Shown here: in pieces, positions 3,720 through 38,748 of the stretch | Position numbering within the stretch: the first letter of the stretch is position 1 | Layout of the letters: each line of letters begins with the position of its first letter | Assembly: GCA_011390885.1 (NCBI GenBank) | Contig: JAABRO010000017.1 | Location: 1-61,917, forward strand | Source of the DNA: Gemmatimonas sp. | GTDB lineage: Bacteria > Gemmatimonadota > Gemmatimonadetes > Gemmatimonadales > Gemmatimonadaceae | Length of the DNA stretch: 61,917 bases | Direction: 5' to 3' | Made by a program: the position numbers and the translations under genes | Notes under the pieces: model-generated | The model's database searches: none | What the model was told of the DNA's origin: nothing | What the model saw: only the letters and a program-made list of their open reading frames with translations

Positions 3720-4649
3720 TCAGTCGAGCGGATCGGGGTGCCGCGAGGCGATGTCGAGCGAGGCCAGCGCCGCGCGCGCCTCGGCGAGCGCAGCGCGCAC
3801 GGGCTCGTGCAGCGACGGGGACAGCGACACGAGCGGCAACCGCAGCACATCGTGCAGCAGGCCGTCCGCCGCAAGCGCCGCCTTGGTGGGGATGGGATTC
3901 GACTCGAGAAACGCGGCCTTGAAGACCGGGCGGAGCGCCGCGTGCAGTGTGCGTGCGTGCCGCACATCGCCGCGGGCGACGGCGCGCGTGAGCGCCACCA
4001 TGGCCGACGGCAACAGGTTGGACACCACCGAGATCACACCGTCCCCGCCAAGCGCCATGAGCGGCAGCGTAAGCGCATCGTCGCCGGACAGCACGAGGAA
4101 GCCGTCCGGCCGCCCCGCGAGGATCGCGTCCACCTGGTCGAGATTGCCGGACGCCTCCTTCACGGCCACGAACCGCGCGTCCTGCGCCAGTTCGAGCACC
4201 GTGGCCGCCTCGATGTTCCCGGCGGTGCGCCCCGGCACGTTGTACAACACGATCGGCACCGCGCACGCATCAGCCACCGCGCGGAAGTGCGCGAGCAGGC
4301 CACGCTGCGGCGGCTTGTTGTACATCGGCGACACCACCAGCAGGTGCGTCGCGCCGGCGCGCACGCTGGCCTGCCCAAGCGCGATGGCGCGCGCGGTGTC
4401 GCTCGCACCGGCGCCTGCCACGACCGGCACGCGACCATTCACGACCTCGGCCACGACCTGCACGACCCGCGCATGTTCCTCGAGCGACAGCGTGGCCGCC
4501 TCACCCGTGGACCCGCAGGGCACGATGTAGTCGATGCCACCCTCCAGCTGGCGTGACACGAGGTTGCGCAGGGCGGGCTCGTCGACGGCGCCATCGGGGG
4601 TGAACGGGGTGACGAGCGCGGTGCCGCACCCGGCAAGCGTTGGGGTCAT
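3720..4649 (-). CDS. dapA: 4-hydroxy-tetrahydrodipicolinate synthase
   Basis: DapA condenses pyruvate with aspartate semialdehyde, the first committed step of lysine/diaminopimelate synthesis. The 309-aa TIM-barrel protein has the GSTGE pyruvate-binding motif at 46-50, the tyrosine of YNVPGRT near 135 and the Schiff-base lysine in FVAVKEASG near 163. All catalytic residues expected for the N-acetylneuraminate lyase/DHDPS family are visible. The start ATG at 4649 overlaps the dapB stop by 4 nt. Its place among dapB, lysC and dapD supports DHDPS rather than another aldolase of the family. Confidence 0.96.
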
Positions 4650-32320: not shown

Positions 32321-32862
32321 TTCCCCTCCCCGTTGGCGAGCTGCTGGCGCAGGAACCGAACCCGCTCCGCGATGAGCCGGGTGCGCTCCACGGCCTCGCT
32401 CAAGCGCTCCCGCAGCGCGGCGTTCTCCGCGGCGAGCGCGTCGTCACCGCCCCGATCAGCCGATACGCGCGCCTCGACGTCCGGCACACTCGTCCCGGCC
32501 TCTACCGCCGCCTGCGCGGCCGCATCGACCGACGCGTGCGCTTCCGCCAGGGCACGCTCGAGTTCCTCGGCGCGCGCGGCCTCACGCCTGGCCGCCGCGA
32601 GCTCCCCCTCGAGCACCGATGCGCGCACGGCTTCCTTGCGCACCTCGGCAAGGGCGGCCTCGAGCGCGCTCACGCGCGCGCGCTGCGAATCGGCCGCCGA
32701 CAACGCCGTCGCGGCCGAGACTTCGGCATCGCGCAGCCGAGCCTCCGCCGCCAGCGCACGCCGACGGAAGCCGGCCAGCTGTTCGGTGACGTTGCGGATG
32801 ACCGACTGCAGTTCGCCGAAGGCCGCGCGGCCTTCGCTCTCAGGACGTGCGGGGTCGGACAC
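32317..32862 (-). CDS. Coiled-coil protein of unknown function next to ZapA
   Basis: I do not recognise a named family. The 181-aa product from a GTG at 32862 is almost entirely predicted helix with heptad-like Ala/Arg/Glu/Leu patterning (LAEVRKEAVRASVLEGELAAARREAARAEELERAL), broken around residue 125 by a Gly/Asp-rich linker (SADRGGDD), and ends in a leucine-rich helix (LIAERVRFLRQQLANG). No signal peptide or membrane helix is present. The first 23 bp overlap the end of pheT and the stop overlaps zapA by 4 nt. Coupling to zapA suggests a divisome role such as a ZapB-like partner, but this is inference from position and coiled coil only. Confidence 0.65.
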   Translation of the reverse strand: MSDPARPESEGRAAFGELQSVIRNVTEQLAGFRRRALAAEARLRDAEVSAATALSAADSQRARVSALEAALAEVRKEAVRASVLEGELAAARREAARAEELERALAEAHASVDAAAQAAVEAGTSVPDVEARVSADRGGDDALAAENAALRERLSEAVERTRLIAERVRFLRQQLANGEGK

Positions 32863-35290
32863 CGAGCTCCCGGTCGAGGGCCTTGAGCAGGCCGGCGCGC
32901 CGACCTTCGATTTCCTTGTCCCGGAGCGTGCGCTCCGGATGACGGAACGTCAAGCGCCAGGCCAGCGAGCGGAACCCGGCGGGCACCCCGTCGCCGCGGA
33001 ACTCATCGAACAACGACAGCGACTCCAGCAGTTCACCGGCGCTCGCGCGCAGCACGCGGTCGACGCGCTCCGCCGGCATGTCCGTCGGCACCAGCAGGGC
33101 GACGTCGAACGAGGCCGCCGGGAACGCGGGAAGCGGCGCGAAGCGCACCGCGGCCCACGGGGAGTTCGGGCGCGCGACGCCAGCCTCGTGCACGTGGGCA
33201 CCGGCAGGCGCGACGTCGGCCGACGGCATGACACCCAGCACGAGCTCCACACCGAACGCCACACTCGCCCAGACCGGTCGGTCGAGCGCCACCTCGCGCA
33301 CCGTGCCGACGGGACGCGGCGACGCGTCGAGCAGCACGTGCCAGAGCGCCTCTCCCTCGGCGGGGACGCAGTGCACGACCGCGCCCGGGAACGCCGCGCC
33401 CGCGAGCGACTCCGCCAACGCCTTGGCATCCCAGGCATCGAAGGCGGGCGGCTCGGGTTCGGTGAAATGCGGCGGACGGCACGCGCCCATGATGAGCGCC
33501 GCCACCCGCACCTCTTCGCGCGGCAACCGGTCACCCGTGGGCACGAACGCCGAGCCGATCTCGAAGAGCCGCACGTTCCCCTGCATGCGCGACAGGTTGT
33601 ACTCCGCACGCGACGCGAGCGTGGTGAGCAGCGATTCGCGCAGGTACGGCTCATCGTCGGCGAGCGGATTGCGCACGCGCAGCGACTCGTCGCTCGCCGT
33701 GGCGACAAACGGCATGGGTCGCGTTTCGGCGAGCCCGAAGGCGAGACACTCCTCGCGCACCCGACGGCTTGCCACATGCAGCGGATGGTCCGGCACGGTG
33801 CCCGGGCGGAACGGCTGCACGTCGTTGGGGAGCGCGTCGAAACCGATGAGTCGCGCCACTTCCTCGATGAGATCCACTTCGAGGCCGAGGTCGCGACGCC
33901 ACGTGGGTGCCGTGACGTGCCACGCCTCGTCGCCATCGGGCACCAGCGTGCAACCGATGGACGAGAGCGTGCGCACGATCTCCGCGTTCGACACCGGCGC
34001 ACCGAGCAAACGCGCCACGCGCGACGCGCGCAAGCGGACTGGCACGGCGTTCGTCGGCGTCGTCCCCACATCGATCACGGCCGTGATACGTCCGCCGGCC
34101 ACGGCGGCGATGAGCGCCGCCGCATGGCCGGCCGCCTTGCCCGTGAAGCCGGCGTCGACACCGCGTTCGAAGCGATAGCTCGCGTCGGTGTTGAGCTGGA
34201 CGGCACGCCGCACGCCGCGCACGAACTTCGGGTCGAACCACGCGACCTCGAGCAGCAGGTTGGTCGTGGCGTCATGCACCTCGCTCGCTTCCCCACCCAT
34301 GACACCGGCCAGCGCCGTGGGACGCTCACCGTCGCAGATCACGGTGGTGCCGGCCGCGATCGTGCGCTCCACGCCGTCGAGCGTGACGAGCGACTCGCCC
34401 TCGACCGTGGGGCGCACGACGATGCGTCGTCCCGCCAGCATGTCGAGGTCGAACGCGTGCACCGGCTGGCCAAGTCCGTGCAGCACGTAGTTGGTGGCGT
34501 CGACCACATTGTTGATGCTGCGCGCCCCCACGGCGCGCAGGCGCTCGACGAGCCACTCGGGGCTCGGTCCCACCTGCACGCCGCGAATCACGACGCCGAT
34601 GTAGCGCGGACACGCGGCCGTGTCCACGAGCTGCACGGTGACACCGTCCGCCGTGGCCTCGGTCGCACCGGAGACCGACGCGGCGACATCATCGGCACTC
34701 GGCAGCGCCGGCAGTTCCGGCGGCATGCGCAGCGGCACATCGAGCAGCGCGCTCACCTCGCGCGCCACGCCAAGGTGCGACAGCAGGTCGGGGCGATTGG
34801 GCAGCACGTCGAGATCGAGGCGCACGTCGCCGACCGGGAGCACGTCGAGCAGCGGTGTGCCCGGCGGCGCGTCGGTGTCGAGCGTGTAGATGCCGTCGTG
34901 CTCCTGGCCAAGCCCGAGCTCACGCGCCGAGCAGAGCATGCCGTTGGAGGTCGCGCCGCGGATCTTGCGCTTGGCGATGAGCAGGCCGTCGGGCATGGTC
35001 GTGCCCGTGCGCGCGAACGGATACTTGCGGCCCGCCGTCACGTTGGGCGCGCCGCACACCACGTCGAGCAGCTCCCCCGAGCCGTCGTCCACCTTGGTGA
35101 CCGAGAGGCGATCGGAATCGGGGTGCCGCGCGGCCTCCACGACGAGTCCGACCACGAACGGCGCGAGGTCGTCACGCAACGCCTCGACGCCGTCGAGCGT
35201 GACGCAGTGGCGACTGAGCGCCTCCCCAACCTCGGCGGCCGTGCGCTCATGCGGCACGAACCCGCGCAACCACTCGTGCGAGACGATCAT
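32840..35290 (-). CDS. pheT: Phenylalanyl-tRNA synthetase beta subunit
   Basis: PheT is the large subunit of the alpha2-beta2 enzyme that charges tRNA-Phe. The 816-aa protein begins SHEWLRGFV, carries the EMAP-like tRNA-binding domain at about 40-150 (VCGAPNV, RGATSNGMLCSARELGLG), then the B3/B4 editing domain (TPLLDVLPVGD, NRPDLLSHLGVAREV), B5, a catalytic-like core (FRPGTVPDHPLH) and a C-terminal anticodon-binding ferredoxin-fold domain (SFDVALLVPTDMPAERV, LTFRHPERTLRDKEI). Length and order are typical. It overlaps pheS by 4 nt. Confidence 0.96.
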   Translation of the reverse strand: MIVSHEWLRGFVPHERTAAEVGEALSRHCVTLDGVEALRDDLAPFVVGLVVEAARHPDSDRLSVTKVDDGSGELLDVVCGAPNVTAGRKYPFARTGTTMPDGLLIAKRKIRGATSNGMLCSARELGLGQEHDGIYTLDTDAPPGTPLLDVLPVGDVRLDLDVLPNRPDLLSHLGVAREVSALLDVPLRMPPELPALPSADDVAASVSGATEATADGVTVQLVDTAACPRYIGVVIRGVQVGPSPEWLVERLRAVGARSINNVVDATNYVLHGLGQPVHAFDLDMLAGRRIVVRPTVEGESLVTLDGVERTIAAGTTVICDGERPTALAGVMGGEASEVHDATTNLLLEVAWFDPKFVRGVRRAVQLNTDASYRFERGVDAGFTGKAAGHAAALIAAVAGGRITAVIDVGTTPTNAVPVRLRASRVARLLGAPVSNAEIVRTLSSIGCTLVPDGDEAWHVTAPTWRRDLGLEVDLIEEVARLIGFDALPNDVQPFRPGTVPDHPLHVASRRVREECLAFGLAETRPMPFVATASDESLRVRNPLADDEPYLRESLLTTLASRAEYNLSRMQGNVRLFEIGSAFVPTGDRLPREEVRVAALIMGACRPPHFTEPEPPAFDAWDAKALAESLAGAAFPGAVVHCVPAEGEALWHVLLDASPRPVGTVREVALDRPVWASVAFGVELVLGVMPSADVAPAGAHVHEAGVARPNSPWAAVRFAPLPAFPAASFDVALLVPTDMPAERVDRVLRASAGELLESLSLFDEFRGDGVPAGFRSLAWRLTFRHPERTLRDKEIEGRRAGLLKALDRELGVRPRTS

Positions 35291-36300
35291 CGGGCGAACT
35301 GCTCCAGGAAGCGAACGTCTGAATCGTACAGGATGCGAATGTCGGGAATGCCGTGGCGCGACATGGCGATGCGCGCCGGCCCCATGCCGAAGGCCCAGCC
35401 GGTGTAGCGCTCGCTGTCGAGCCCCGCGGCCTCGAGCACGTTCGGATGCACCATGCCGCACCCGAGGATCTCCACCCAGCGCGTGCCCTTGCCGTCGCCG
35501 AGGTCCACCTCGACGTCCATCTGGGCACCGGGCTCCACGAACGGGAAGTACGACGGCCCGAAGCGCACGCGGCGCGTGCCGCCGTAGAAGCGGCGCGCGA
35601 ACTCGGAGAGGGTGGCCTTGAGGTCGACGAAGGAAATGCCTTCGTCCACGGCGAGTCCCTCGAGCTGCATGAAGCTCGGCGCGTGCGTGGCATCGAAGAA
35701 GTCGCGACGATACACGTTGCCGGGCGCGAGGATGCGCACCGGGGGCGCGTACTGCTGGAGCGTGCGCACCTGCACCGGCGAGGTGTGCGTGCGCAGCAGG
35801 GTGTCGTCGCCGAGGTAGAGCGTGTCGTGCAACTCCATGGCCGGGTGATCGGCGGGAAAGTTGAGCGACGTGAAGTTGTAGAACTCCGTCTCCGCTTCGG
35901 GGCCGAGCGCGATGGTGAAGCCGAGTTCGCGGAAGATCTCGGCGATCTCGTCGATGACGAGCGTGACCGGGTGGAGCGAGCCGCGCCAGCGCCGGCGCGC
36001 GGGCATGGTGAGGTCCTGGGCGGCGGCACCACGCGCGGCTGCGGCCACGAGGGCTTCGCGCTCGTCGAGCAGCGCCTCGATGCGGCTCTTGACCTCGTTC
36101 ACGGCGCGGCCCGCATCGCGGCGGGCCTCGGGGGGCAGCGCGGCGAGCTGGGCCATGAGATCGGCGAGCCGGCCCTGCTTCCGGCCGACCAGCTGCGTGC
36201 GCACCTCGGCGAACTCGGACGGCGAGGCGGCGACGGCGATGCGCGCGGGGGCGTCGTCGGCGAGCCGCTGACAGGCCAGGAGAAACTCGTCCAGCGTCAC
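35287..36300 (-). CDS. pheS: Phenylalanyl-tRNA synthetase alpha subunit
   Basis: PheS is the catalytic subunit that activates phenylalanine. The 337-aa protein has an N-terminal coiled coil that contacts tRNA (about 1-90) and a class II catalytic domain: FYNFTSLNFPADHPA with motif 1 near residues 150-165, motif 2 PGNVYRRDFFDATHAP, SYFPFVEPGAQ, and motif 3 GMGPARIAMSRHGIPDIR. The GTG at 36300 is chosen because the family begins just there; the Shine-Dalgarno is weak. It overlaps pheT by 4 nt and lies 109 bp after rplT, with a hairpin in between. Confidence 0.95.
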   Translation of the reverse strand: MTLDEFLLACQRLADDAPARIAVAASPSEFAEVRTQLVGRKQGRLADLMAQLAALPPEARRDAGRAVNEVKSRIEALLDEREALVAAAARGAAAQDLTMPARRRWRGSLHPVTLVIDEIAEIFRELGFTIALGPEAETEFYNFTSLNFPADHPAMELHDTLYLGDDTLLRTHTSPVQVRTLQQYAPPVRILAPGNVYRRDFFDATHAPSFMQLEGLAVDEGISFVDLKATLSEFARRFYGGTRRVRFGPSYFPFVEPGAQMDVEVDLGDGKGTRWVEILGCGMVHPNVLEAAGLDSERYTGWAFGMGPARIAMSRHGIPDIRILYDSDVRFLEQFAR

Positions 36301-36356
36301 GACGGATCCGGGAGGTTGGAGGAAAGTCGGGTCGGGCACATGGGCACCGACGCAAA

Positions 36357-36393
36357 CGGGCGGCCCCACGCGAGATCGCGCAGGAGCCGCCCG
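36357..36393 (-). terminator. Hairpin between rplT and pheS, candidate attenuator
   Basis: On the minus strand CGGGCGGC pairs perfectly with GCCGCCCG, with additional inner pairs (GCGCGA with TCGCG), and is followed by only a short T-run (TTTGCG). It lies 57 bp before the pheS start. It may partly terminate the infC-rpmI-rplT transcript or attenuate pheST; no Phe-rich leader peptide is evident. Confidence 0.45.
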
Positions 36394-36409
36394 TACGGTC
36401 GCGATGAAC

Positions 36410-36778
36410 TCAGGCGGCCTGCTGCTGCAGGGCGGCGCGGGCCTGGTCGGCCAGCGCGGCAAACGCCTGCGGATCCCGCACGGCGATGTCGGCCAGGTTC
36501 TTGCGATCGATCTCGATGCCAGCCTTCTGCAGCCCGTTGATGAAATGGCTGTAGTTCAGGCCGTTGAGGTGCGCGGCGGCGTTGATGCGCACGATCCACA
36601 GGCGACGGAACTCACGCTTGCGGTTCTTGCGGTCGCGGTAGGCATAGCGCCAGCCGCGCTCGACGGTTTCCTTGGCAGCCTTCCAGAGCTTACTGCGGCC
36701 ACCGAAGGCGCCGCGGGCGGCCTTCATGACCTGCTTCTTTCGCTTGAGGCGAACGACGTTGGACTTGACGCGTGGCAT
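36410..36778 (-). CDS. rplT: 50S ribosomal protein L20
   Basis: L20 binds 23S rRNA early in 50S assembly and in several bacteria represses its own operon. The 122-aa protein is strongly basic, begins [16 protein letters not shown] and contains [22 protein letters not shown] and [11 protein letters not shown], the L20 signature. Length is typical. It follows rpmI by 12 bp in the universal infC-rpmI-rplT order. Confidence 0.98.
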
Positions 36779-36790
36779 GGTAGGGAATCC

Positions 36791-36988
36791 TCAGGCGAGA
36801 ATGAGACGCTTGATTCGCTTGACCTCGCCGTTCGTCTCCACGATGGTGGGACGACGGAGGCCGCGCTTCCGCTTCGCATCCTTCTTGGTGAGGATGTGGC
36901 TCTTGTAGGCCTTCAGGCGCCGCACCTTCCCCGTGCCAGTGACGGAGAAGCGCTTCTTGGCGCCGCTGTGGGACTTCATCTTCGGCAT
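36791..36988 (-). CDS. rpmI: 50S ribosomal protein L35
   Basis: L35 is a small late-assembly protein of the large subunit. The 65-aa product begins [13 protein letters not shown] and contains [17 protein letters not shown], the family signature. The ATG at 36988 is clear. It sits between infC and rplT; a stable hairpin in the 68-bp gap after infC could be the site of L20-type translational control. Confidence 0.97.
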
Positions 36989-37056: not shown

Positions 37057-37575
37057 TTACTTCGGCGCGAGAATCATCGTGAGTGAACGTCCTTCCATCA
37101 GGGGCATGCTCTCGACCTTGGCGATCTCCGCCAGTTCCGACGCCACCCGGTCCACCACCGCCCGTCCCAGCTCGGGGTGGGTAATCTGTCGCCCGCGGAA
37201 CATCAGGGTGACCTTGACCTTGTTGCCTTCCTCGATGAACCGCTTGGCATTGCGCGTCTTGGTGGCGAAGTCGTGCTCGTCGATCCCCGGACGGTACTTG
37301 ACCTCCTTCAGGTGGATCACGTGCTGCTTCTTCTTCGCCAACCGGGCCTGCTTCGCCGTCTCGAACTTGAACTTGCCATAATCCATGATGCGAACGACGG
37401 GCGGACGGGCCGTAGCCGCAACCTCGACGAGGTCGAGCCCCTGCTCCATCGCGCTCGAGAGCGCCGCATCGACTTCCATGATGCCCAACTGACTGCCGTC
37501 GGCCGCGATGACGCGGACGGGGCTGATCCGGATCTGTCGATTGACCCGTGGCGGACGCTTCGTGGAATCCTGGAT
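37057..37575 (-). CDS. infC: Translation initiation factor IF-3 (probable AUC start)
   Basis: IF-3 keeps ribosomal subunits apart and checks the start codon. Homology to the N-domain ([20 protein letters not shown]) extends upstream of the first possible TTG at 37488, to an ATC at 37575 with GAGGAG 8 nt before it. This gives 172 aa, the normal length; no ATG, GTG or TTG fits. AUU/AUC-type starts are well known for infC and let IF-3 repress its own synthesis. The C-domain motifs [20 protein letters not shown] and [14 protein letters not shown] are intact. It is first in the infC-rpmI-rplT-pheST transcript behind a long leader. Confidence 0.95.
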
Positions 37576-37599
37576 ACGCCGAGCTCCTCAAGTGGGAAA

Positions 37600-37631
37600 C
37601 AAAAAACGCGGACCCCTGAACGGAGCCCGCG
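37600..37631 (-). terminator. Attenuator-like hairpin plus U-run in the infC leader
   Basis: CGCGGGCTCC, loop GTTCA, GGGGTCCGCG gives a 10-bp stem with two G-U pairs, immediately followed by TTTTTTG on the minus strand. This is the best intrinsic terminator in the window, yet it sits only 25 bp before the infC start and in the direction of infC, so it should stop transcripts before the operon unless overridden. Confidence 0.75.
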
Positions 37632-37643
37632 CTGCGACACAAG

Positions 37644-37682
37644 GCACGGCCTCCTCCCGACCAAGCGGGAGAGGCGCCGTGC
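37644..37682 (-). promoter_or_regulatory. Long leader hairpin upstream of the infC attenuator
   Basis: GCACGG outer pairs and a GCCTC-TCCCG arm with a CTTGGT loop fold into a long, slightly bulged stem of about 16 bp. It directly precedes the attenuator (12 nt away), as expected for a regulated leader RNA. I could not identify a partner sequence that would disrupt the terminator stem. Confidence 0.4.
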
Positions 37683-37794
37683 GCGCAATGGGGACTCCGC
37701 CAGCACGTCGTCTCGCAGGGCGAGTACGCGGCCGAAGGGTGAGGGGGCCGGCTGGCCCGCCTGCTTGCCAAGTTGTTCCTGCACCAACAGATCA

Positions 37795-37822
37795 AACCTA
37801 GACGGACGGCCCGTCAGGTCAA
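37795..37822 (-). promoter_or_regulatory. Predicted sigma-70 promoter for the infC operon
   Basis: On the minus strand TTGACC (37817-37822) and TAGGTT (37795-37800) are separated by 16 bp. Predicted start is near 37788, giving a leader of about 210 nt before infC. The stretch 37576-37866 contains no protein gene, only this promoter and the leader hairpins. Confidence 0.55.
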
Positions 37823-37866
37823 CCCCCCGCACATGACGCGGACCACGAAACCGCCCGGTCCGCGCC

Positions 37867-38748
37867 TCAATCCGCGCCCGTCAGCGCGTAGCTCTTCCCG
37901 TCGTGCGCCACCCGCCCCCAGGCCGTCGTCGCGTCGTGCTCGAAGATCAGGAGCCACCCCTCCGCTTCGGCCCGCGCCAGCAGCGTGCGCTTCGACTCCA
38001 GCGTCACCAGGGGCTCCACGTCGTACCCCATGATCCACGGCAGCGGCAGGTGCGAGGCCGTCGGCGTCACGTCGCCGAGGAACACGGCCGACTCCCCCCC
38101 CGACGTGAGCAGCACGCTCTGGTGGTGCGGGGTGTGCCCCGGGGTACGCAGCAACTGCACACCCGAACGGATCTCCGGCTCGCCGTCCACCAGGTCGAAG
38201 CGGCCCGCGGCCACGATCGCGTCCCAGTTCGGGCCGAAGTAGCTCGCCGCCGTGCGCTCGTTCGTATGCGTCGCCCACGCCATCTCGCCGCGCTGCACCA
38301 CGTAGCGGGCGTTCGGAAAGGCCGCCTCGACGCCACCGCTCGGCGTGCGCCAGGTGTTCCCGCCCGCGTGGTCGAAGTGGAGGTGCGTGTTGATCACGAG
38401 CGTCACGTCGTCGGGCGTGAAGCCGAGCGCGTGGATGCCGTCCTCGAGCATCGTGCGCCCCTCGGCGCCGGCGTTCTCGATGGCATAGATGTCGTGGAAC
38501 TTGCTCGTCTCCTTGTTGCCCGACCCCGTGTCGATGAGCAGCAGCCCGTCGTCGTGCTCCACGAGCAGGCAGCGCATGCCGAGCGGAATCCGGTTGCGCG
38601 CGTCGGCCGCGATGCGACGCTCCCAGAGCACCTTCGGGACGACGCCGAACATCGCGCCCCCGTCGAGCTGCTGGCCACCGGCCTGGATGGCGTGAATGCG
38701 CCAGCGGCCGAGCTGACGGGTCTGCACGAGCGGAGTGGGAGCGGTCAC
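37867..38748 (-). CDS. MBL-fold metallo-hydrolase
   Basis: The metallo-beta-lactamase fold signature NTHLHFDHAGG is present near residue 120, with further metal ligands likely in TPGHTPHHQS and FLGDVTPTA and a late FEHDATTAWG. The 293-aa protein starts at a GTG at 38748 that overlaps the exonuclease stop by 4 nt. The substrate cannot be named; relatives include lactonases, glyoxalase II-like enzymes and nucleases, and the MFGVVPKVLWERRI opening is typical of lactonase-like (AttM/AiiA-related) proteins. A quorum-quenching role would be speculation. No signal peptide is seen. Confidence 0.85.
   Translation of the reverse strand: MTAPTPLVQTRQLGRWRIHAIQAGGQQLDGGAMFGVVPKVLWERRIAADARNRIPLGMRCLLVEHDDGLLLIDTGSGNKETSKFHDIYAIENAGAEGRTMLEDGIHALGFTPDDVTLVINTHLHFDHAGGNTWRTPSGGVEAAFPNARYVVQRGEMAWATHTNERTAASYFGPNWDAIVAAGRFDLVDGEPEIRSGVQLLRTPGHTPHHQSVLLTSGGESAVFLGDVTPTASHLPLPWIMGYDVEPLVTLESKRTLLARAEAEGWLLIFEHDATTAWGRVAHDGKSYALTGAD

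Follow-up and report, generated by a model that had tools for sequence, protein, structure and literature searches.

A probable divergent L20 leader, acting by transcription attenuation, upstream of infC in Gemmatimonadota

Leaders through which ribosomal protein L20 attenuates transcription have been described as narrowly distributed and as belonging to Firmicutes (PMC6097659). In B. subtilis, as described in the same work, the L20 site is a junction of helices, mutations in it relieve the repression, and the terminator forms on binding (PMC6097659); a review summarises the infC leader of this species as having two alternative structures, the terminator being promoted by L20 (PMC10931766). 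In E. coli, according to that review, L20 controls the translation of rpmI-rplT and not that of infC (PMC10931766), and the title of a work in the reference list of PMC9845219 states that IF3 autocontrol of infC is lost when the start codon is changed to AUG. The known L20 leaders are said to share an AA dimer and two consecutive G-C pairs (PMC7247131). For Gemmatimonadota, no description of an L20 leader was found in the open-licence literature, and the main text of PMC7247131 does not contain "Gemmatimonad".

Herein the region upstream of infC is analysed in a stretch of 61,917 nucleotides from Gemmatimonas sp. (the window, Table 1) and in its relatives across the phylum. On the basis of sequence comparison, we hold with good confidence that the infC leader in Gemmatimonadota is a divergent L20 leader which works by transcription attenuation; the gene order, the core, the covariation of hairpin P1, the terminator, and one segment complementary to two partners all support this reading. 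As in the RF00558 leader of B. subtilis and other Bacillota, the genes follow the order infC-rpmI-rplT, and upstream of infC stand AAG-N-P1-CACC(C/T), a GG(G)U partner, a variable hairpin and a terminator; unlike it, the Gemmatimonadota leader scores below the Rfam cut-off and has a larger P2. Compared with the control by L20 and IF3 in E. coli, the genes are the same, L20 is again the (proposed) regulator and infC has a non-AUG start (AUU in E. coli), but in Gemmatimonadota the site precedes infC and has a terminator. With the candidate L20 leader of Deltaproteobacteria it shares the proposed L20 contact, made up of an AA dimer and two G-C pairs in succession, while the scaffold is another one, as judged by the description in that paper (PMC7247131). 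A divergent form of the L20 leader would thus now be seen in much of our Gemmatimonadota sample, beyond Firmicutes. With it one can examine directly how an RNA core that binds a protein persists as the terminator and the antiterminator change, and it suggests a way of balancing the output of IF3, L35 and L20 in these bacteria.

Table 1. Features of the infC leader and operon in the window
Feature	Position	Strand	Basis or remark
Promoter-like TTGACC-16-TAGGTT	37795..37822	-	read directly, 8 of 12
AAG (AA dimer of putative L20 site)	37764..37766	-	all 83 usable rows of A2; matches AAG of RF00558
Hairpin P1	37742..37762	-	double changes in 9/9 pairs of A1
CACCC, 5' strand of P0 (putative L20 site)	37737..37741	-	74 to 82 of the 83 rows retain the P0 pairs
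Hairpin P2	37709..37728	-	73% of cells paired; double changes in 3/5 pairs
GGAGUCC	37692..37698	-	pairs with CACCC (P0) or terminator 5' arm (antiterminator)
Variable hairpin P3	37644..37682	-	fold; length differs among relatives
Terminator stem-loop	37605..37633	-	12 pairs, 8 G-C, loop 5; fold and conservation
U6 tail of terminator	37601..37606	-	sequence
Shine-Dalgarno GAGGAG	37584..37589	-	sequence; 3' end 8 nt before AUC
infC start codon AUC	37573..37575	-	read from sequence
infC (IF3)	37057..37575	-	NCBIfam TIGR00168, E 1e-66
rpmI (L35)	36791..36988	-	TIGR00001, 1.6e-22
rplT (L20), proposed ligand	36410..36778	-	TIGR01032, 3.7e-43
ORF holding pheS (start not settled)	35287..36462	-	TIGR00468, 6.5e-86
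pheT	32840..35290	-	TIGR00472, 3.2e-180

The operon of the window runs on the minus strand in the order infC, rpmI, rplT, pheS, pheT, with rplT in the same operon as the infC leader; judged by this order, pheST are perhaps on the same transcript as infC. The product of infC is IF3, the Pfam domains IF3_N and IF3_C being matched besides the NCBIfam family. A stop closes the infC frame 15 nt upstream of the AUC, between them lie only GGA GCT CGG CGT, without ATG, GTG or TTG, and the first of these three codons in the frame is a TTG at 37488, within the IF3_N domain; the original prediction of an AUC start behind a Shine-Dalgarno is thereby confirmed. Moreover, AUG is never found at this position in the family leaders, where AUU occurs 67 times, AUC 15 times and AUA twice (n=84), or 53, 14 and 2 times when distinct leaders are counted (n=69). 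With such starts, IF3 autocontrol of infC is plausible here. Non-AUG starts of infC are nothing new, and several Bacillota loci, inspected by eye, likewise have AUU or AUC. In the order-level relatives L032-L043 and L045-L050, the start appears by eye to be CUG, not AUU or AUC.

A terminator with six U's 25 bp before infC was already part of the original prediction, and the hairpin in Table 1, followed by U6 and a spacing of 25 nt, agrees with it; the stem measures 12 pairs, and the long hairpin also noticed then corresponds by its fold to P3. Terminator and U6 together reach -22.2 kcal/mol, against -11.9 (sd 2.6) in shuffled sequences, none of 200 being as good. A simple terminator scan finds 1 against 1.2 expected in shuffles, which alone is not significant, and the stability of the whole 305-nt region is not unusual (z -1.27); we count the terminator as more than chance because it is conserved in relatives. 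In fact, 152 of the 154 regions examined with a permissive scan have a terminator between core and infC, the exceptions being L166 and L190.

Such a hairpin might be taken for the ordinary terminator of the upstream gene, which encodes a metallo-beta-lactamase-fold protein on the same strand as infC and ends at 37867, the infC promoter then lying past the terminator. We consider this extremely improbable, as the gene ends 234 nt before the terminator, the conserved core would be left unexplained, and promoter-like sites (at least 8 of 12, within 110 nt 5' of AAG) stand upstream of the core in 84 of 139 leaders, while shuffles give a mean of 2.4 and a maximum of 6. For the window, a promoter scan with a stricter limit lists none, TTGACC-16-TAGGTT being below its limit; the leader of 210 nt first proposed has its promoter-like site, but its length hangs on the prediction of that site. 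Two minor observations belong here. Directly behind the stop of the metallo-beta-lactamase-fold gene stands a strong hairpin (37835-37866) that lacks a U run, and a short ACAA(U/C) was seen by eye 6 nt 5' of AAG, near the presumed transcription start, in the window (37773-37776) and in L018, L024, L027, L037, L161 and L173.

The comparison drew on infC upstream regions of 50 named contigs (L001-L050), of family genomes, and of further orders and classes within the phylum. Among the named contigs, the 31 nearest IF3 relatives (L001-L031) show 74-90% identity and are, by their titles, Gemmatimonadota MAGs except L001 and L019. L001, a contig titled Candidatus Kuenenia, bears a Gemmatimonadaceae-like infC locus with 88% IF3 identity; since this contig has the same kind of leader as L097, a locus from a family genome which it matches, a binning error is likely.

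The alignment A1 comprises 30 of 55 non-redundant family leaders, in which AAG, CACCC, GG and several terminator positions are invariant. For P1, P0, P2 and the terminator together, 89.0% of cells pair against 76.1% when shuffled (0/500), the terminator alone reaching 93% in the 30 leaders, and covariation scores 0.370, compared with 0.158 in shuffles (0/500); when the partners are slid by one column, pairing falls to 43-45%. Less telling is the count of doubly changed pairs, 16 against 13.2 in shuffles (33/500). By helix, double changes occur in all 9 pairs of P1, in 3 of 5 in P2, and in 1 of 5 in P0, which is nearly invariant. Covariation across relatives, named in the original prediction as a check, is seen in P1.

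A covariance model built from A1, named R1, was then run on 121 genomes of the phylum (E<=0.01), and 49 of its 53 matches fall at infC. Within the family, 41 of 43 genomes are matched, always directly 5' of infC, and the two others (G055 and G142) have no infC match either; outside the family, matches occur in 10 of 78 genomes, at infC in 8 of the ten, and the remaining 68 have none at this threshold. The matches away from infC are G094:C7:2-94, G004:C1:1760362-1760490, G015:C12 and G009:C130, the first (51.7 bits, at a contig end) and the second (24.8 bits) being second R1 matches. The window leader scores 73.7 bits, but since R1 was trained on that family such scores are partly by construction, and it is the position and the copy number that matter.

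In the breadth scan over the 154 regions, where the permissive terminator scan was followed by an AAG-hairpin-CACC[CT] anchor, the core is anchored in 140 of the 152 terminator-bearing regions and the GG motif in 138, being missing from L030 and L137. The strict core is absent from 12 of the 152 (L004, L110, L157, L167, L183, L187, L198, L199 and L201-L204), among them the most distant branch, f8 (L202-L204). In the control with dinucleotide shuffles of non-redundant leaders, 0 to 6 of 106 were anchored over 10 rounds. A phylum-wide alignment, A2, was made from 93 chosen sources and has 85 rows, 83 of them usable, two rows (L130:1412-1438 minus and L048:329-461) having been dropped as spurious before the counts. 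In the 83 rows of A2, which was fitted to the structure of the model and leans towards it, AAG is present throughout, the P0 pairs are kept as A-U in 80, C-G in 79, C-G in 82 and C-G in 74 rows with a fifth pair in about half, and the first six pairs of P1 are 95-100% paired with several pair types.

The segment GG(A)GUYC merits particular attention, as it is the 3' strand of P0 and is also complementary to the 5' arm of the terminator. In A1, 94.7% of the antiterminator cells pair, and inside the family there is no covariation, 82 of 500 shuffles reaching its score. Over 106 non-redundant leaders, in a set that kept visibly mis-anchored GG motifs (for example L007, L014, L020, L141 and L181), the antiterminator duplex of each leader with its own terminator averages -9.67 kcal/mol, and an exchange of terminators among leaders gives -8.45 (sd 0.19; 0/1000); for 37 leaders outside the family the values are -9.68 and -8.72 (sd 0.27; 2/2000), kinship not being removed by swapping in these tests. 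Ranked against the other stretches of its own leader, the segment reaches the top 10% in 31 of 43 leaders of the family and in 21 of 37 outside it (3 of the 83 A2 rows were unusable). When the transcript is cut directly behind the 5' arm, folding predicts 4 or more expected antiterminator pairs for 42 of 43 leaders of the family and 20 of 38 others (2 of 83 rows unusable); the cut transcript of the window has 7.8 predicted antiterminator pairs, and its full leader shifts to the terminator with 9.7. P0 itself is hardly ever predicted without protein, with means of 0.28 and 0.97 expected pairs, and is too invariant for covariation, and it rests therefore on conservation and the Bacillota parallel, not on energy. 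Such a weak prediction is as expected if L20 must hold P0.

Since GG(A)GUYC can pair either with CACCC or with the terminator arm, L20 very probably stops transcription before infC-rpmI-rplT, and perhaps that of pheST too. When free L20 is scarce, GGAGUCC would pair with the terminator 5' arm as soon as this is made, forming an antiterminator, and RNA polymerase would continue into infC-rpmI-rplT, perhaps also pheST. Once there is more L20 than its sites on 23S rRNA can take up, the protein would, we infer, bind where AAG, P1 and CACC:GG(A)GU meet and hold GGAGUCC on CACCC, by which the terminator arm would be freed and transcription in the cell would stop behind the run of U's. Independently, IF3 may restrict its own synthesis at the level of translation from the AUC. 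The CC:GG pairs and AAG fit the description of the known L20 leaders, and they may be the bases that L20 touches here. The regulated read-through first proposed for this operon is thus well supported by the joint conservation of terminator, competing pairing and putative ligand site, though the likely ligand, L20, and the antiterminator had been missed.

It may be asked whether L20 acts through this leader on translation or RNA stability, the hairpin being a by-product, as L20 in E. coli acts at translation (PMC10931766). This seems quite improbable, considering that the same kind of leader works by termination in B. subtilis (PMC6097659), that the U-tailed terminator is conserved together with the core, and that the Shine-Dalgarno lies outside the conserved structure. 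Attenuation by L20 remains our preferred reading.

Attenuation as such could also serve another signal. The pheST operon of E. coli is attenuated by means of a Phe-rich leader peptide or uncharged tRNA, and with infC, rpmI and pheST all in the operon, a Phe-rich peptide, uncharged tRNA, IF3 or L35 might be the signal instead of L20; we regard this as very improbable. In 130 of 140 leaders the short ORFs contain no more than one Phe codon, and the candidate of a Phe-rich leader peptide, unsupported by these counts, was rejected. A T-box or other leader family stays below cut-off in the window and in 11 Gemmatimonadota loci, and the core matches L20 leaders. At the gathering score, Rfam identifies only two tRNAs in the whole window, and three T-boxes, all in Bacillota, among 16 loci (11 Gemmatimonadota, 4 Bacillota and 1 Acidimicrobiaceae).

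The link of the proposed L20 leader to the Rfam family RF00558 (L20_leader) was followed below its curated cut-off of 58.7 bits. Upstream of infC, the model is found in 8 of 8 Bacillota loci scanned, at 31.5-52.4 bits and thus each time below the cut-off; at or above the cut-off it matches 0 of 61 phylum genomes and 0 of 39 family genomes, and at E<=10 the window genome has no match. At the same limit, the 39 family genomes give 28 weak matches, 8 of which are in sense orientation immediately upstream of infC and end at most 45 nt from the infC match (G024, G175, G029, G016, G021, G023, G177 and G010). By our own estimate, which assumes an even spread, about 0.001 would be expected there by chance, and the weak matches at infC (8/28) are above it; five of the 28 outscore all those at infC and are located elsewhere. 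In the alignments of six leaders, AAG, first hairpin, CgCC and terminator of the model fall on the same elements of the leader. A search of nine short leaders with Rfam at E<=10 gives L20_leader in six, and not in L151, L152 and the window's L153; the window leader yields three implausible matches at E<=10, and L20_leader is absent among 7 matches in 16 family loci at E<=1. The phylum-scan loci L082-L091 have no infC by tblastn, and their RF00558 matches are therefore not this leader.

In a scan without the terminator requirement, all 19 Bacillota loci have AAG-hairpin-CACC[CT] 5' of infC, and none of the 10 loci from Proteobacteria or Cyanobacteria has it; with its GG partner, this Bacillota-type anatomy is the one found in Gemmatimonadota. 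R1, run on Bacillota, weakly matches the leaders of L061 (E 0.16) and L065 (E 0.22). In all 19 Bacillota leaders, the stretch most complementary to the terminator arm falls between -16 and +4 nt of the start of CACC, in a scan that had no shuffle control and included one doubtful terminator (L052). Unlike in Bacillota, for which this is exploratory, the likely antiterminator in Gemmatimonadota is the 3' strand of P0 and not P1/CACC. It is tentatively conceivable that Bacillota, Gemmatimonadota and perhaps Acidimicrobiia (locus L079) have one L20-binding core in common with a rewired switch, the antiterminator being the 3' strand GG(A)GUYC in Gemmatimonadota and the P1/CACC strand in Bacillota; if true, the binding core stayed while the switching strand changed sides. 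That the block might be a copy of part of the 23S rRNA was considered and dropped, the part in question not being where the L20 site lies; an E. coli 23S piece gave no match in the window's own genome. In L079 (Acidimicrobiaceae), where the scan found no terminator in the leader, AAG-hairpin-CACCC followed by GCCGGGUC is located within 420 nt upstream of infC (match at 4001); this may be a core of the L20 type in a third phylum.
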